Virus record (IMG/VR): IMGVR_UViG_3300005915_000003
Coordinates: 1 to 48,878 of that record
Origin: a virus
Reading direction: 5' to 3' (one strand)
DNA: 48,878 bases
This document shows, piece by piece, positions 6,645 through 23,653 of the stretch (position 1 is its first letter; every line of letters starts with the position of its first letter). The notes below the pieces were generated by a model. It ran no database searches and was not told where the DNA came from. It was given only the letters and a program-made list of their open reading frames with translations. Made by a program: the position numbers and the translations under genes.

Positions 6645-8641
6645 TTTCCACTTTCCGGGGATTCTTTCCCCTCCATTTGAGCCATCTGCTCTAGCTCTGC
6701 CTGTTTCGCCTTCATAAGAATCATCCTATGAGCATCGGTATGCTGCATGGCGATTTCCTTCAGGTCGTCTGACAGGTTATCGAACTCGTTTGAAAGAAGG
6801 AATCTCTTATGAACTTCAAAGTGTACTGCGTGTTCATCGAAGTCAAACAATGGGTCATCGTTAATATCTTTCATCTCGCCGGTTTCCGGGTTGACTTCCA
6901 TGAGGTAGATGTTTTCTACATTACTCGTAGCGATATCGGTATTCTCCCGTTCTGCTCTTTCACGGTCTACGTCAAGTTTCTCTGCAAACCCACTAAGACC
7001 TAACTTCTTGAGATATTCCCTGCGAATTTCAGGATCTTCAATCTCAAAGAACTTATACTGAATCAAGTCCATAAGGATTTGTTTCTTCCCGGCTTGCGTT
7101 GTGGACAATCCAGACTCGATTTCCAGTTTAACATCTGTGTTGTTACGTAAATCCGCACCCTTGAAGTTCATTATGCGCTTACGACTGTTTCTGCCCATGA
7201 CACTTATCTTGCGATTTTCTGTGTAAACGTCCCGAGATATTATCAGACGCTTCTTGTAAACAGCGCTCATCTGAGTATTGTAGCGGTCTATATCAGGTAC
7301 ATGACCCTTCTCGGCAGTCTCACGCAGGATATCTACCATGATACCAGAAGATTTAGATGATGGCGCCTTGCCTCTCATTATATTCTTGGGATCACCAGAC
7401 AGGTCTTGAATCTGTATCTTTGAATTATTGCGTTCTTCCAAGATTTGCTGTGGTAGTGCAATGCCCTGTTCAAACTTCGGTTCTTTGCCGCCTGAAAGTA
7501 AAGCATCATATTCAAGTGCCAGAAAACCTTGCCCGCCTTCACTCAGTCTCTTTATCGTAAGGCCCGTTGGAGTGATGACTCTTGGCCTACCTAATCCCTT
7601 ACGATTCATTATAAGAGCCTGATCTATTTCGTTGATTTTGTTCTGAGGACTGATAAGATCATTCACCCCAGGGTCTGACCAGAATTTGCCTGGAATTTTG
7701 TTATAATGGAAGTCAGTCAGAGTATAGTACCATTTGCCGTCTTTGACAGGGATAGGCATTCGATCTAAATCTATCAACTTTTCATTGCCAGCAACTACGA
7801 GGTATCTGCCCTTTGGATACTTAATAGAGGGTTTAACTTCCAGTTCCTTGAATAGTACCAATTCCTGTTCGTTGAGTTCGATAGAATTGTTTTCAAGCCC
7901 ATGCCCTTTCCAGAGTGACACATTGCTTACGAGCTTCAGTAATCTCTTCTGGTAATCAATCGCTCTCTCGCTATCACCGCCCTTTATCTTTACATTGAAG
8001 GTATCTTCTACCCATTCCCGGGGAACCAATGACCGTATGCCGATCCAGCGTTTGTCCCTGAAGTTCTCGCCCAGACTGTCCATGATGACGTTGAAGTTTA
8101 TCACATTCTTGGCGACGACTTCCCCGGTTTTAATGACCGTACCCTTTTTATCGATGAACCAAGGCCCACCATCCATTTCGGGGATTGTTCTCATGAATGC
8201 CGTACCACCAAGGCACATCCAATCGATGAGTTTTTCCTTTTCACCCTGAATCTCATTGTCATTGACCGTATCCAGCCATATAAGGAACTGTTCTCCGAGC
8301 CTTGCCGCTTCCCGATCTTCTCTTTCATCTGTGTTGGGGGTAAGGGTTGGTTTAAGATTCTGCCCTAAGAACATTGCTCTGACGGCTTTAACGAAGCTCC
8401 TGATCTCATTGTCAACGGGCGTTGGGACATACTGTGGCATTTGTCTCCGGCGGAATGTCCTGGACGACCTCATGTATTCAATCCACTGTTCGCCCATATA
8501 GTACAGTATGTTCCGGTAGGTGACTCGATCTTGCATTGTCCGTGCGTAATCCACGTCAGTATTGAACAATGCGTTGACAAAATTAACTAAATCCTTACCT
8601 TTTAAATCTTCTCCTTTCTTGAAAAACTTATAGGTATCCAT
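6641..8641 (-). CDS. Portal protein
   Basis: 666 residues starting at an ATG behind AAGGAG. The N-terminal region (FNTDVDYARTMQDRVTYRNI, MGEQWIEY) and a helical C-terminal half match the layout of large portals of short-tailed phages of the P22 type, slightly shorter than the P22 portal. It forms the dodecameric ring at the packaging vertex, through which the terminase moves DNA and on which the adaptor and nozzle assemble. It lies between the terminase and scaffold genes. The last 60 residues are Met/Glu/Gln-rich, as often seen in portal tails. Confidence 0.9.
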   Translation of the reverse strand: MDTYKFFKKGEDLKGKDLVNFVNALFNTDVDYARTMQDRVTYRNILYYMGEQWIEYMRSSRTFRRRQMPQYVPTPVDNEIRSFVKAVRAMFLGQNLKPTLTPNTDEREDREAARLGEQFLIWLDTVNDNEIQGEKEKLIDWMCLGGTAFMRTIPEMDGGPWFIDKKGTVIKTGEVVAKNVINFNVIMDSLGENFRDKRWIGIRSLVPREWVEDTFNVKIKGGDSERAIDYQKRLLKLVSNVSLWKGHGLENNSIELNEQELVLFKELEVKPSIKYPKGRYLVVAGNEKLIDLDRMPIPVKDGKWYYTLTDFHYNKIPGKFWSDPGVNDLISPQNKINEIDQALIMNRKGLGRPRVITPTGLTIKRLSEGGQGFLALEYDALLSGGKEPKFEQGIALPQQILEERNNSKIQIQDLSGDPKNIMRGKAPSSKSSGIMVDILRETAEKGHVPDIDRYNTQMSAVYKKRLIISRDVYTENRKISVMGRNSRKRIMNFKGADLRNNTDVKLEIESGLSTTQAGKKQILMDLIQYKFFEIEDPEIRREYLKKLGLSGFAEKLDVDRERAERENTDIATSNVENIYLMEVNPETGEMKDINDDPLFDFDEHAVHFEVHKRFLLSNEFDNLSDDLKEIAMQHTDAHRMILMKAKQAELEQMAQMEGKESPESGK

Positions 8642-8652
8642 TATATTACTCC

Positions 8653-8868
8653 TTATACCGGTATCCCAAATTCTACATCAGGCGCAGGTTCTGTCGGTTT
8701 TGCGGCTTCTTCTTTCCGTACTTCTGCCATGACGTACTCTTCGTAACTCTTCGCCATAATACGGTTCAGAAGCTCAGATTCACGCCTTACAGCCTCTCTT
8801 TTGTCTAATTGGTGTATCACCCCTTGATAAATAATGATACCTATTAAAACGGCTATTGCTACTTCCAT
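8653..8868 (-). CDS. Single-pass membrane protein, 71 aa
   Basis: Residues 2-17 (EVAIAVLIGIIIYQGV) form one membrane segment at the N-terminus, followed by a charged helix (20-55) and a Pro-rich tail. The topology resembles an inner-membrane spanin, but the lysis genes are elsewhere, at about 30.0-31.0 kb. A GGAGAAA ribosome site precedes the ATG. Its place between terminase and portal is shared with small membrane genes in other podoviruses; function unknown. Confidence 0.7.
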   Translation of the reverse strand: MEVAIAVLIGIIIYQGVIHQLDKREAVRRESELLNRIMAKSYEEYVMAEVRKEEAAKPTEPAPDVEFGIPV

Positions 8869-8880
8869 GATTTCTCCTTT

Positions 8881-11355
8881 CTACCAATGGGCATATTCGC
8901 CCTCGTTAATTTCATTGTATTCATCCCATATTTCCTTCAATTCCAAATGGGCTACCTCTGAAACGTCTTTCGGTGCCTTCTTTGGCTCAACTCTCTTTTC
9001 AATGGTTCCAATAGGTCTGGACATGGCGATATGAGCGGCTTCATCAAAACAATTATGTACTGTTATACCACCATTAACACAAAATGCATGTGTGTAAGCA
9101 GCATCTAAACAGAAAACATCTTGTTCACCCACATAAATCACTTGCTTTACTTTTGCGTGTTTCCCATGTTGACCTTGAAGTACAATGTGGTGAACAAGTT
9201 TTTCCGAATCCAACAAATTTGGTTCCACACCATTTACATATTCCTTCGGATCTACTATCAAGTTGCCATTTCCTTTGCTGACACCTTCGTGAACAATAGA
9301 TTTGAAATGGCAATCCCTTAAAAACCTTTTCACAAAAGACACATGTTTTATCTGTTCGCTGACGTATTTTGTCTTTACAGTGTTTTTCGTACTGTTGTTT
9401 GTGCCATTCCAATCCTTCTTGACTTCCATGCCATTTGTTAGCCCCAACATGCAATGCATCAACCCATTGTTGTGTATAATTAAGTTTCCCATGTTGCGAC
9501 TTATGCTCTGAAGAGTCTTTACATTCAAGATTTTCAATTTGGTTATTATATCGGTTAAAGTCTTTATGATGGATATGATAACCCTTTTTAATTTTCCCAT
9601 TATGATATTCCCATACTGCCCGATGTAACCTTTTTCTTGTCCTAGCAAAGTATTTTTCTGATAATATGTACCTTTTACCATTAAACTCTTGTGTGGTACT
9701 GTCGATATTTTTGACTCGCATGTTAATACCTCCATAATATCTTTATTATTTTGGATACTAACATGGCACGCTTCATCAGTCAAGTCTTTTACTTCTTTCC
9801 ATCTACCATCACTGGTTAATATTTTGTGATCTTCAGTACAAGTAATAGATTTATCGTCATCGAATAAAACACGAAACACTTCTACTTTTTCTCTAGTTTT
9901 CCTACAATTATAAAAATCTGTCCAATATCCCCCACAGGTTAAAACCTTACCACTTTTACCTACAAGATTCTGTAATGTAATTTCCCCATCTTTTGTATCG
10001 ACTATTGTACTACCTACCAAACAATGGTCTTCACCTTTTGTATTAACGTCTTCAATGTTATTCTCATCGACTACGAGATTCGGCAAAGTCCTGATAAACT
10101 GTTTGCAATTAGGGTATACCTTCATCATCGGCATATCTTGATCGTGTCTCAGCCTCTCGTGCATCTGTTTAATCTTGGCGATTCGATTCTTATCATCTGC
10201 CGGTCTTAAAGTAAGCCCATTATCCCTGAAAACTTCCATTGTCGATGGACCCTGCCCGCCACCCAAGTAGTTAGGACGTTTCTGGAAACAATCACTCCCG
10301 GCCAGTCTCGAATTTACCCTTCCCCAGATCCCCAGACCTTTCTCTTTGGCAATAATCCCTTTGGCAATGTCTGTATCGGTCATTCTCAATCCCTGATTCG
10401 GGCTTCCATTCCACCCATACCATTCGTCAAACCGATAAACCCTACCGTCATTGTCTATCCACCACCACCCTATTGAAAACGGAGCACCAAAACCCCAATC
10501 ATAGGTCATTACGATAGGCGCATTATCAGGAACAGGCAAATCACCATCAACAACGTGCATCGGTGGCGACCATTCCTGAAACGCCTGACCTACAAAGACG
10601 TTCCAATCACCATCCCTAAAGGCCTTCCTGATCGCTTCGGGAAGAGTATTCAGCATGCCCCAATAGGTTGCGTCGATGTACTTGTTATCATCAGCCTTTG
10701 ACGGAATATAGCAGAATTGTTCCCTGTAATCTATAGGTTGTTCAAATGTCGGCGCCCATTCATCACCATATATCCGATCCATCCAAAGAGCTTTTACCCA
10801 CCCATGACCTACAGACCCAGGGTTCGTACCGCCTACAAACGGGCATTCTATGTCTTTCAGTCCTGGCCAACGAAGTCTCTGCCTCAAAAATGTGAACACA
10901 TCGTAATCGTTTTTGGTCAGTTCGTCAACGAGAATAGCCGCAAATTCACTTGAAGCGTACTTTGCAGGGTCATCGAGGTTCCTGAAGCAGATAATCCCAT
11001 TCCCATATTCAGGCGAAAGTATAAAACATCTCCCATAGTCTTTATGATCGGTATAGTTCTTGCCCAACCAATCAGGAAACTCTCTTGAAATCTTCTGTAA
11101 CTGACGATCCTTTAAAGCCGGATAGTTCTCACAAGCCAACATCACATTGACCCATGTAAGTCCATACTTGGCGAAGATCATCATTAAAAAACGTACTGCA
11201 AACCATCTCAGGCCATAGGACTTGCCCCCGCCCAACGCCCCACCATATAGAAGAAACTTATACAGTCCAGTATCAAACTGCTTGCAAAGCTCTATCTGCC
11301 GTGGTTGGAACTTGGCTATCTGATATTCAAAATTGAGATTCTGTCGCTTTTTCAT
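8881..11355 (-). CDS. Terminase large subunit interrupted by an intein
   Basis: DNA-packaging motor and nuclease. ATPase motifs are Walker A GGALGGGKS (about 38-46) and Walker B AAILVDELTKN (about 139-149). The RNase H-like nuclease begins at MTYDWGFGAPF (D286). After EDVNTKGEDH an intein of 324 residues (445-768) interrupts the protein; the C-extein resumes CFDEAAHIAMS. The intact extein motif GEDHCFDEAAH matches the conserved terminase segment carrying the last nuclease aspartate (D771). Spliced length would be 500 residues, normal for the family. I use the ATG at 11355 with GGAG upstream; a TTG at 11367 is also possible. A full HNH gene lies within the intein in another frame. Confidence 0.93.
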   Translation of the reverse strand: MKKRQNLNFEYQIAKFQPRQIELCKQFDTGLYKFLLYGGALGGGKSYGLRWFAVRFLMMIFAKYGLTWVNVMLACENYPALKDRQLQKISREFPDWLGKNYTDHKDYGRCFILSPEYGNGIICFRNLDDPAKYASSEFAAILVDELTKNDYDVFTFLRQRLRWPGLKDIECPFVGGTNPGSVGHGWVKALWMDRIYGDEWAPTFEQPIDYREQFCYIPSKADDNKYIDATYWGMLNTLPEAIRKAFRDGDWNVFVGQAFQEWSPPMHVVDGDLPVPDNAPIVMTYDWGFGAPFSIGWWWIDNDGRVYRFDEWYGWNGSPNQGLRMTDTDIAKGIIAKEKGLGIWGRVNSRLAGSDCFQKRPNYLGGGQGPSTMEVFRDNGLTLRPADDKNRIAKIKQMHERLRHDQDMPMMKVYPNCKQFIRTLPNLVVDENNIEDVNTKGEDHCLVGSTIVDTKDGEITLQNLVGKSGKVLTCGGYWTDFYNCRKTREKVEVFRVLFDDDKSITCTEDHKILTSDGRWKEVKDLTDEACHVSIQNNKDIMEVLTCESKISTVPHKSLMVKGTYYQKNTLLGQEKGYIGQYGNIIMGKLKRVIISIIKTLTDIITKLKILNVKTLQSISRNMGNLIIHNNGLMHCMLGLTNGMEVKKDWNGTNNSTKNTVKTKYVSEQIKHVSFVKRFLRDCHFKSIVHEGVSKGNGNLIVDPKEYVNGVEPNLLDSEKLVHHIVLQGQHGKHAKVKQVIYVGEQDVFCLDAAYTHAFCVNGGITVHNCFDEAAHIAMSRPIGTIEKRVEPKKAPKDVSEVAHLELKEIWDEYNEINEGEYAHW
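9052..10023 (-). mobile_element. Intein in the terminase large subunit
   Basis: The element begins with Cys (CLVGSTIVDTKDG, block A) and contains block B TCTEDHKILTSDG with the Thr and His of splicing domain 1. It ends with block F/G VFCLDAAYTHAFCVNGG...VHN, whose His-Asn pair is followed by the +1 Cys of the C-extein. All residues needed for class 1 splicing are visible. It is inserted at the nuclease active-site motif, so unspliced terminase should be inactive. The middle of the intein frame (about 200 residues) is basic and low in structure and overlaps the HNH gene at 9125-9721. Confidence 0.93.
9125..9721 (-). CDS. HNH homing endonuclease nested out of frame inside the intein
   Basis: 198 residues, read on the same strand as the terminase but in another frame. 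The ATG at 9721 has its own GGAGG seven bases upstream, both inside intein codons. The HNH motif is IHHKDFNRYNN (H51, H52, N60) with His73. Two treble-clef-like zinc fingers follow: C127/C130/C143/C147 and C162/C165/C176/C180. It ends at a TGA at 9125, before intein block F. It should cut the intein-free terminase allele to drive homing. The dual coding avoids stops in the intein frame over about 600 bases. Two compensating sequencing errors could mimic this but are unlikely given the private start signals. Confidence 0.9.
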   Translation of the reverse strand: MRVKNIDSTTQEFNGKRYILSEKYFARTRKRLHRAVWEYHNGKIKKGYHIHHKDFNRYNNQIENLECKDSSEHKSQHGKLNYTQQWVDALHVGANKWHGSQEGLEWHKQQYEKHCKDKIRQRTDKTCVFCEKVFKGLPFQIYCSRRCQQRKWQLDSRSEGICKWCGTKFVGFGKTCSPHCTSRSTWETRKSKASDLCG

Positions 11356-11647
11356 CCGGCTCCGCAAAGGCGTTTTCTACAATCACCTTAAATTCGTCCA
11401 TATTCGATACTTTAATCTCCGTGGGGAACTCTATACCATCCACGGTGATCTTGTCCTTTGGAGACTGGTTAATGAAACCACAATGACCATTCTCGTCGTC
11501 ATCCCAAGCCCAAGCACCACAGCGCCCGCCAAGACATCCACCAATCACCTCACATCCAAACGCCCCCCGGTTGTGATTCAGCAAACGATGCAATTCTGTC
11601 ACCTGATACTTCGGACACCATACTCTATGCGATTCTGCTGCTCTCAT
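11327..11647 (-). CDS. Cys/His-containing hypothetical protein, 106 aa
   Basis: Starts at an ATG behind GGAGAAAAG. The N-terminal half has scattered Cys and His (VWCPKYQ, GCEVIGGCLGGRC, GHCGF) that could bind a metal. The C-terminal half is acidic and soluble. The 3' end overlaps the start of the terminase gene by 29 bases, so expression is probably coupled. No family recognised. Confidence 0.7.
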   Translation of the reverse strand: MRAAESHRVWCPKYQVTELHRLLNHNRGAFGCEVIGGCLGGRCGAWAWDDDENGHCGFINQSPKDKITVDGIEFPTEIKVSNMDEFKVIVENAFAEPDEKATESQF

Positions 11648-11853
11648 CTTTTCTCCTTTCCTATTGTACCTACCAGTTTCCGAAGTTTGGCACCAATACT
11701 ACCCGGTTCAACAGTGACAACCTTGATGTGTTTTCTGTTTCGTACTGCCAGTTTCAAGGAATCTCTCCGATCAGAACGATTAACAGCGGGCATATCCGTA
11801 GCAATCTTCAGAATCTGACACCTTTCATTTAAACTTTTACCTTTTAATATCAT
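11644..11853 (-). CDS. Basic hypothetical protein, 69 aa
   Basis: A small, strongly basic protein (LKLAVRNRKHIKVV, KLRKLVGTIGKEKR) that overlaps the genes on either side by four bases. The high charge suggests nucleic acid binding, but there is no recognisable domain. Confidence 0.65.
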   Translation of the reverse strand: MILKGKSLNERCQILKIATDMPAVNRSDRRDSLKLAVRNRKHIKVVTVEPGSIGAKLRKLVGTIGKEKR

Positions 11854-22652: not shown

Positions 22653-22844
22653 ATGAGTGCAAAATCAGATAAAATGTTTATAACCGAAATTCTAAATGAT
22701 TTACACAGACATGGTTATGTTGAACGTGGCAAGGCCGATACCATGCTTTCCGATTGGGCTATTGAACTGCGAAGAAAGGCAGCAATGGCACCGTCAAGAT
22801 TAAGAAAAACCTTCAATGAAGAAGTTGGAGCATGTAACTGGTGA
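22653..22844 (+). CDS. Hypothetical protein, 63 aa, first gene of rightward early block
   Basis: ATG at 22653 behind AAGGAAGAG. Helical and charged ([20 protein letters not shown], then [14 protein letters not shown]), possibly a small DNA-binding fold; the [13 protein letters not shown] stretch could be a helix-turn-helix. As the Cro-position gene opposite the HTH repressor it is a regulator candidate, by context only. Confidence 0.65.
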
Positions 22845-22869
22845 ACACCCTACTACCTAGTACGATGCA

Positions 22870-22910
22870 CCCCTCCAGACCTCCTACTGCGGTAGGTTGG
22901 CAGAGAGGGG
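22870..22910 (+). other. Hairpin before the pentapeptide-repeat gene
   Basis: CCCCTC (22870-22875) can pair with GAGGGG (22905-22910), enclosing a perfect CCTAC-TGCG-GTAGG stem-loop (22883-22896). It lies in the 107-base gap between two genes. No T run follows. Possible leader structure for the pentapeptide-repeat gene. Confidence 0.45.
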
Positions 22911-22951
22911 GAACCGGCAAAGGTGGTATAAAAATAGGAAAGGAGAAAAGA

Positions 22952-23653
22952 ATGAAGTTTGAAATCAAGCATAGATTTACTGGAGCAATACTTTTTACGG
23001 TTGAAACCGGATCACTGAAATTAGCCGTAGAGTTGGCGGTTAAGAGTGGTGCCAATCTCCGTGGTGCCAATCTCAGTGATGCCAATCTCCGTGGTGCCAA
23101 TCTCAGTTATGCCAATCTCCGTGGTGCCAATCTCAGTGGTGCCAATCTCAGTGGTGCCAATCTCAGTTATGCCAATCTCCGTGGTGCCAATCTCAGTGAT
23201 GCCTATCTCAGTGGTGCCAATCTCAGTTATGCCAATCTCCGTGGTGCCAATCTCAGTTATGCCTATCTCAGTGGTGCCAAAGGTATCTCCAAATACAGGA
23301 CAACCCCTCTATACATACTACTCGATCAAGTAGGCAAAATCCGGGCATATAAACTTACCAGTGCTAACGATGAGGGGCCTACCTATGGTGGCATAAAATA
23401 TATTGTCGGGCAGACAGTTAAAGAGAAAGCGTGTACTGACGAAACATCGGAATGTGATTACGGTATCAGTGTAGCAACTCTTGACTGGTGTATAGAAAAC
23501 TGGCGCCAAGGGTATAAGATCAAAGTCGTTGAATTTTCCCGCGCTGATATTGCCTGTATCCCGATAGCATCAGACGGGAAATTCAGGGTATCGAAATGCA
23601 AGGTAATATCGGAGAAAGACCTAACGGAATTTGAGTTAATAACGGGGGTATAA
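22952..23653 (+). CDS. Pentapeptide-repeat protein with C-terminal DUF5758-like domain
   Basis: 233 residues from the ATG at 22952 behind AGGAAAGGAG. Residues 1-33 are a short beta start. Residues 34-108 are 15 consecutive A(N/Y)L(R/S)(G/D/Y) pentapeptides, predicted to form a right-handed quadrilateral beta-helix. The C-terminal 120 residues ([32 protein letters not shown]) resemble the DUF5758 domain attached to such repeats in phages. Related helices mimic DNA (as in Qnr/MfpA), but a gyrase role is not shown here. Confidence 0.85.
23051..23275 (+). repeat. 15-bp tandem repeat encoding pentapeptides
   Basis: Fifteen copies of a 15-base unit close to GCCAATCTCCGTGGT, differing mainly at the last two codons. 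The DNA is almost identical between units, so recent expansion and variation in copy number by slippage are likely. The same repeat gives an artificial MPISVV-type repeat in the next frame. Confidence 0.95.

Follow-up and report, generated by a model that had tools for sequence, protein, structure and literature searches.

In textbook large inteins the endonuclease is fused in frame, and in group I introns the endonuclease open reading frame (ORF) lies inside the splicing element and is translated on its own. A further layout, in which a free-standing endonuclease separates the two parts of a split intein, is said to have been described by Dassa in 2009 under the name of 'fractured genes'. The subject here is an intein in the large terminase (terL) gene of a 48,878-base virus record, IMGVR_UViG_3300005915_000003 (the whole stretch is termed the window below), between whose splicing halves lies a complete HNH endonuclease gene in another reading frame. 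As in canonical large inteins, the splicing halves surround the endonuclease, which lies between blocks B and F, but here it is not in frame with them and has a start of its own. As in fractured genes, the endonuclease is a separate gene within the intein, and 24 of the 152 distinct relatives surveyed resemble that layout, whereas in 107 nested loci, the window included, the intein frame continues unbroken across the endonuclease gene. Unlike that of a group I intron, splicing would take place at the level of the protein, and an Rfam search for a group I intron gave no match in window positions 8600-11700.

Inteins in large terminases are known from mycobacteriophages, where they lie in the ATPase domain, splicing has been shown and some have endonuclease activity (Kelley, 2016; PMC5050341); the intein described here lies instead towards the C-terminus, and that of phage Highwayman just past the nuclease-domain match. 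The literature searched gave one paper with the same overlapping logic, on the ShiLan domain, an out-of-frame HNH in a phage methylase with no detectable splicing domain (Arsenault, Gosselin and Gogarten, 2025; PMC11855218), and a genome note mentions another methylase of this kind (PMC12613952). In both ShiLan and the window, the insertion has no stops in the frame of the host gene and encodes an HNH with zinc fingers in a different one, and the predicted host-frame structure is of poor confidence. ShiLan has a DNA methylase host, no splicing domain and no detectable ribosome-binding site, while the family described here consists of inteins in terminases, often with a sequence like a ribosome-binding site, in two frames and with split and mini forms. 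Out-of-frame endonucleases within inteins may already have been described by Gosselin, Arsenault and Gogarten in 2025 (bioRxiv 2025.01.02.630785) or by Gorbalenya in 1998.

The terminase intein and its nested gene

Counted from the probable terL start, an in-frame ATG at 11355, the intein occupies residues 445-768 (coordinates in Table 1), and the terminase without it reads ...KGEDH/CFDEAAH..., where the slash marks the insertion point. Cys1, a block B TEDH, a C-terminal VHN and Cys+1 all stand in the terminase frame, as the original prediction, made from this sequence alone, had held. NCBIfam TIGR01445 (intein N-terminal region) matches with 26.4 bits against a cut-off of 24.5, and Pfam Intein_splicing matches at 1.7e-8, but its 34.8 bits are one bit under the curated cut-off of 35.8. 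These residues are those of class 1 inteins (Cys1, block B TxxH, C-terminal His-Asn, and Cys, Ser or Thr at +1), as are the HINT splicing fold, here in the predicted structure, and a precise insertion in a conserved host motif with empty alleles, here in one case, the relative L128. The halves lie in a single frame with zero stops and not on separate ORFs, as in a split intein, and the HNH is offset by 2 and not fused in frame, as in a canonical large intein. The intein most likely splices in cis. The insertion had been predicted to fall in the nuclease part of the terminase, and the intein of Highwayman does start at the end of the Pfam match to the terminase RNase-H-like (nuclease) domain; the EDH..D residues at the site are presumably the catalytic motif.

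The nested gene is matched by Pfam HNH_3 (5.6e-15) and, over residues 1-192, by PHROG 15471, and it has the HNH motif and the conserved zinc-binding cysteines of HNH homing endonucleases. Its N-terminus, MRVKNIDSTTQEFNGKRYIL, resembles that of the free-standing HNH of phage Ec1-ASingh, MRVKVISPAIQEFNGTRYYL, which stands behind AGGAGG. A 198-residue HNH with its own GGAGG and ATG, and some 600 dual-coding bases in which the intein frame avoids stops, had both been claimed and were both borne out, with 0 intein-frame stops where shuffling of synonymous codons expects 4.3 (P = 0.0016, calculated on the identical gene of L001). The intein-frame translation of the HNH gene, here called the shadow, weakly matches PHROG 30251 (1.2e-4) and PHROG 35162 (0.0014), as if other phages shared the nested arrangement. 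A second contig is identical to the window over at least 10,972 bp, which speaks against the frameshift errors that the original prediction had named as a possible refutation, though weakly, since it probably comes from the same virus; the whole intein, searched as one protein against viral contigs, matched this identical contig only.

In all 12 chosen nested pairs (71-94% nucleotide identity; the pairs used for conservation were non-overlapping and at 70-97%), the HNH reading was more highly conserved than the shadow. Changes fell at HNH codon positions 1, 2 and 3 in the numbers 172, 125 and 301 (of 598) in nested+1 loci and 152, 101 and 316 (of 569) in nested+2 loci, classes that are defined below, and the pattern in one split and one free pair was much like that of the nested pairs. 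AlphaFold modelled the window HNH with a mean pLDDT of 94.2; for the intein, residues 1-90 and 291-324 reached 95-98 and nearly all of 114-268 stayed below 50, so that it is predicted to consist of two confident halves and a mostly disordered linker. With this model Foldseek returned the Ssp DnaB, NpuDnaB, DnaE and NrdJ-1 inteins, and a profile of the intein alignment finds DnaE inteins at up to 2.8e-15. The overlap does not hold two fully constrained proteins, as its intein-frame reading seems to be constrained mainly against stops; the predicted disorder and the codon-position counts led to the rejection of any structured role for that reading. The last dozen HNH codons overlap the C-terminal splicing strand of the intein, and there both readings are structured. 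Shadow glycines that look conserved are, by our reading rather than by computation, conserved HNH tryptophans seen in the next frame (TGG as GGN).

Recurrence and stop codons among relatives

Relatives were sought with the HNH, as a single sequence and as an alignment, among viral and genome contigs and phage and plasmid records. The best 80 of 217 relatives were taken with the HNH and the best 80 of 315 with the intein N-terminal half, and the counts are therefore not a census. Profiles of the two intein halves (from 14 loci) and of the HNH (from 18; alignment A1) were scanned over the loci in three forward frames, and an HNH match of more than 60 bits was required, which left out, among others, BL3 (L027), L159 and the in-frame inteins L191, L208 and L209. 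Loci were classed as nested+1 (intein frame at HNH+1, the type of the window), nested+2 (HNH+2), split (halves separated by stops or frame) or free (no intein detected). The 186 loci classified comprised 113 nested+1, 24 nested+2, 27 split, 20 free and 2 cut off, some contigs having been fetched repeatedly. Removal of near-copies by shared 5-letter words left 152 distinct loci, with the copies of the window gene (L019, L030, L125 and L131) left out beforehand and represented by L001: 91 nested+1, 16 nested+2, 24 split, 20 free, 1 cut off by a contig end and none in frame. An uninterrupted intein with an out-of-frame HNH is hence found in 107 of the 152 (91 + 16), and the original framing of the window as a singular case was too narrow.

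Nested cases with names include phages TJE1, Highwayman and LS06-2018-MD07, in whose records the nested HNH is unannotated, and a Halobacterium plasmid that carries terminase and portal genes (the plasmid records gave two matches, one nested and one split), which places nesting in bacterial and, probably, archaeal viruses. A scan independent of the HNH used the intein N-terminal half and its extein (alignment A4, from eight nested relatives, and thus a query derived from nested loci). Its best 80 of 315 matches contained 66 distinct inteins, by exact N-half sequence only so that near-copies persist: 33 nested+1, 13 nested+2, 8 split with an HNH, 8 without an HNH, 3 in frame and 1 truncated, which puts the nested arrangement at 46 of 66. 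The three in-frame inteins, L191, L208 and L209, lie in other genes, two for radical SAM proteins and one for a ribonucleotide reductase, and carry a distant HNH of 16-30 bits against the profile of this family. Homologues with the same HNH fused in frame had been named as grounds for abandoning the original prediction, and no such fusion of this family occurs among the 152 distinct loci or was met in the N-half scan.

The intein alignment starts at Cys in 103 of the 107 nested inteins (of the other four, L078 and L116 have a Cys near the start, and L041 and L080 are the remaining two), and a terminal Asn followed by Cys, Ser or Thr is present in 105. The inteins of L036 and L155 apparently end in Gln, not Asn, before Cys+1. 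With about a hundred related viral genes sharing this double use of the DNA, the arrangement appears to be no accident but a mobile-element design that has been maintained.

Expected numbers of stop codons were obtained by shuffling the synonymous codons of each HNH, with stops counted within the HNH match (L073 gave 2 stops in the shuffling because its ORF reached beyond the HNH). The nested+1 loci have 0 intein-frame stops where 199.7 are expected and the nested+2 loci 0 where 149.0 are expected; these zeros alone are circular, since zero stops define a nested locus, which weighs against the case. The argument rests on two other facts: of the 131 loci with both intein halves, 107 are open against an expected number of about 13, and split and free loci carry stops in neutral numbers. 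In the +1 frame the split loci have 156 stops against 158.3 expected and the free loci 137 against 140.5, and the frame left unused by nested+1 loci is likewise neutral (1515 against 1556.6). Individual split loci carry about the neutral number, except L018, which has 0. Relatives without an uninterrupted intein thus have chance-level stops, and the overlap looks as though selection has kept it open.

Nested+1 HNHs also favour codons and amino acids with which intein-frame stops are rarer. By codon usage, the median number of intein-frame stops expected per 200 codons is 2.5 in nested+1, 6.6 in split and 8.3 in free loci (P = 5e-15), and by amino-acid usage 5.4, 7.2 and 8.0 (P = 5e-9; 90 of the 91 nested+1 rows included), P values that are optimistic because the loci are related; the GC content of nested+1 HNHs does not differ from that of split and free ones (P = 0.44). 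The amino-acid difference could be due in part to descent, and this too counts against.

A Shine-Dalgarno-like match of at least 4 bases stands at the HNH start in 53 of 91 nested+1, 11 of 16 nested+2, 20 of 24 split and 15 of 20 free loci. Since the fraction is only 0.31 for 1775 start-like codons in the N-terminal halves, internal initiation at the HNH start is likely for many nested loci.

Table 1. Features of the window on which the analysis rests, followed by other ORFs of the record.
Feature	Coordinates	Strand	Details
terL ORF with intein	11367-8881	minus	828 codons from TTG; PHROG 979 terminase, 7.5e-15
Intein, 324 aa	10023-9052	minus	Cys1 ... His-Asn, then Cys+1
N-terminal splicing half of intein (blocks A, B)	10023-9778	minus	profile match
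Shine-Dalgarno-like GGAGG	9733-9729	minus	7 bases ahead of the HNH ATG
Nested HNH endonuclease gene, 198 aa + stop	9721-9125	minus	other frame, offset 2 from terminase frame
Dual-coding stretch, 594 bases	9721-9128	minus	HNH in one frame; stop-free shadow linker of intein in terminase frame
C-terminal splicing half of intein (blocks F, G)	9156-9052	minus	profile match in L001 transferred via 100% match; alignment A7
C-terminal extein of terminase (CFDEAAH...)	9051-8884	minus	sequence; intein-free relative L128 reads EDH/VYDEACH
ORF matching glycosyltransferase families 8 and 9	276-1865	minus	single ORF
Pentapeptide-repeat protein	22841-23650	plus	
Large ORF, 1183 aa	33405-36953	minus	no PHROG or Pfam match at thresholds used
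Large ORF, 865 aa	38013-40607	minus	no PHROG or Pfam match at thresholds used
Large ORF, 885 aa	45017-47671	minus	no PHROG or Pfam match at thresholds used

Empty, mini, split and free relatives

The element is found in several states. The empty one is represented by the intein-free terminase of L128, which is 58% identical to that of the window and has Val at the residue that is Cys+1 in the window. Acinetobacter phage BP10 was considered as an empty-site relative of Highwayman and dropped, its terminase being a different one. The mini state comprises eight distinct inteins of 130-171 residues that have no HNH, seven of them at the same or a neighbouring terminase site, L199 being the eighth. 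L007 lacks the HNH core, and in L149 stretches in the HNH frame resemble both ends of the protein (INVISNTIQEFLGK ... MYCSRNCAATAGRKCRA) where the core is gone and the intein frame intact.

Free HNH genes without an intein lie at the 3' end of terL in 14 of 20 loci, 13 of them just downstream and that of Shemara ending beside terL on the opposite strand; the terL assignment was made mostly by eye on the C-terminal motif, and for PAE1, SN1, FBPa53, Poludnitsa and vB_EauM-23 also by annotation. Three more lie upstream of terS or terL (L017 and L042, assigned by eye, and BP10, by annotation), and the remaining three, L068, L075 and L079, were not assigned to a terminase position. In Exiguobacterium phage vB_EauM-23 (L023, near 2225), terL stops a few residues past the conserved NNH of the intein site, before the free HNH, and this terminase may be cut or frameshifted there. 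PAE1, SN1 and FBPa53 (L119, L121 and L122) have a further 588-base ORF two genes past the free HNH, which is annotated as 'homing endonuclease' in PAE1. The original prediction had proposed that such an arrangement may show how an endonuclease invades a mini-intein; free HNHs beside terL and HNH-less inteins at the site favour this, and the relic in L149 adds that the HNH is lost as well as gained, so that the proposal stands in part.

The records of Vibrio phages 1.245.O and 1.238.A (L117 and L123) list a terminase and a separate 'hedgehog/hint domain protein', which look like the halves of a split intein-terminase around an unannotated HNH, the intein-half matches being weak (21-25 bits). 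In L018 (1040-1170) the N-half frame is open beyond the HNH and the C-half lies in the HNH frame, either a sequence frameshift or a real change of frame.

The history of these states was examined on an HNH tree of 152 rows, made by a quick method, with 74 of 149 inner branches poorly supported. It is unrooted and gives no direction of change. Over all classes 24 changes are needed, compared with 57 on average when the classes are shuffled. The nested+2 class requires 3 changes and falls within a clade of 34 (support 97) that it shares with 12 split, 3 nested+1 and 3 free rows. The existence of two intein frames suggests that the overlap was established at least twice, or that the frame changed. 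In split and free HNHs 6.6-8.3 stops are expected per 200 codons in the +1 frame and 17.0-21.4 in the +2 frame, and the prevalence of the +1 type may be explained by the easier frame. Passage from nested to split takes one change, a break of the intein frame, whereas passage from split to nested takes many.

Explanations of the overlap and their meaning

The best explanation, which we hold with high though not complete confidence, is that the terminase intein is a mobile element whose DNA is shared by two genes, one for a cis-splicing intein and one for a separately translated homing HNH. Translation of the terminase frame would give one long precursor, in which the ends of the intein would fold together as the splicing domain. 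The disordered linker between them, some 170 residues that result from reading the HNH gene in a shifted frame, would be looped out, and cis splicing would yield a terminase of about 500 residues. Translation of the other frame of this message, beginning at an internal ATG behind its own ribosome-binding site, would give the HNH-zinc-finger endonuclease, which would cut terL genes without an intein near this site, and repair would then copy the intein along with the HNH gene. Selection on the terminase would keep the HNH gene stop-free in the intein frame, and selection for homing would keep the HNH protein. Where homing no longer pays, deletion of the HNH with the intein frame kept would give mini-inteins, and where the intein frame breaks, halves expressed separately would form a split intein around the HNH gene. 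In this scheme nuclease expression may be separate from terminase splicing, and splicing may gate DNA packaging, as was originally suggested.

Several points weigh against this explanation, beyond the circularity and shared descent already mentioned. The best solved relative of the HNH, I-HmuI (1u3e), is a weak one (0.029 by profile and 0.17 by fold). A 4-base Shine-Dalgarno match is missing at 38 of 91 nested+1 starts, and at the 16 nested+2 starts no match extends to 5 bases. In 3 of 24 split loci no start codon was found near the C-half, and some split loci, L018 and L159, may be sequencing frameshifts. The anatomy, the recurrence, the lack of stops relative to controls, the conservation of the HNH frame, the predicted folds and the occurrence of nested, split, mini, empty and free states are observed; splicing, translation of the HNH, its cutting site, homing and the direction of the transitions are deduced.

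An alternative that we consider improbable, yet the most serious of the rivals, is that the nested HNH acts in DNA packaging, in the manner of a terminase-adjacent HNH that aids cos cleavage, and not in homing, and that nesting secures its co-expression with the terminase. The free relatives adjoin terminase genes, most at the 3' end of terL and three upstream of terS or terL (partly by eye), and an HNH of HK97 works with the terminase in vitro, as recounted in PMC10448857. A needed packaging factor would, however, not be lost so readily as in L007, L149 and the eight HNH-less inteins, which retain terminase and intein with the HNH eroded or absent, and the intein-free relative L128 counts against it as well. 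The packaging and homing roles could also coexist.

It is very unlikely that the intein frame goes unused in cis, with the terminase made from two trans-splicing pieces or by frameshift or bypass and the open frame a by-product. The 24 split relatives suit such a reading, as does the presence, in 13 of them, of an ATG and ribosome-binding-site match no more than 25 codons upstream of the C-half, often exactly at its start (MKVK...); the same feature is present in only 7 of the 107 nested loci, and if the frame were not read through, nothing would account for its lack of stops. Still less credit is due to a non-splicing out-of-frame insertion of the ShiLan kind, which shares the logic of an HNH in the other frame of a stop-free insertion (PMC11855218), since the window has splicing residues, Pfam and NCBIfam intein matches and a predicted splicing fold, features that the paper does not report for ShiLan. 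Assembly or sequencing frameshifts or a chance long ORF have next to no probability: most relatives are metagenomic contigs, but the same offset recurs in the genomes of TJE1, Highwayman and LS06-2018-MD07 and in the Halobacterium plasmid, there are 107 distinct nested loci, and free and split relatives have chance-level stops. Recurrence and stop counts led us to reject an artefact, a chance ORF and a pseudogene alike.

With the mobile two-gene intein as the preferred explanation, the family is a large one whose DNA encodes, over the same bases, a linker for protein splicing in one frame and an entire nuclease in the other. It offers many natural replicates for the study of overlapping genes, with the split and free relatives as built-in unconstrained controls, and it warns that nested HNH genes are missed in the annotation of phage records. 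If they do splice, inteins that tolerate a disordered linker of this length could perhaps be useful for engineering. The relatives also provide a concrete series of states, from free nuclease through nested and split forms to the mini-intein. A broader reading, whose chances seem to us evenly balanced, is that inteins with an endonuclease at this terminase site are, in bacterial and archaeal viruses, normally nested out of frame, that nesting arose at least twice and in two frames from HNH genes beside terL, that dual coding reshaped the nuclease in both its codons and its amino acids, and that nested, split and mini forms interconvert. If true, this would show how split inteins and endonuclease-free inteins come about.

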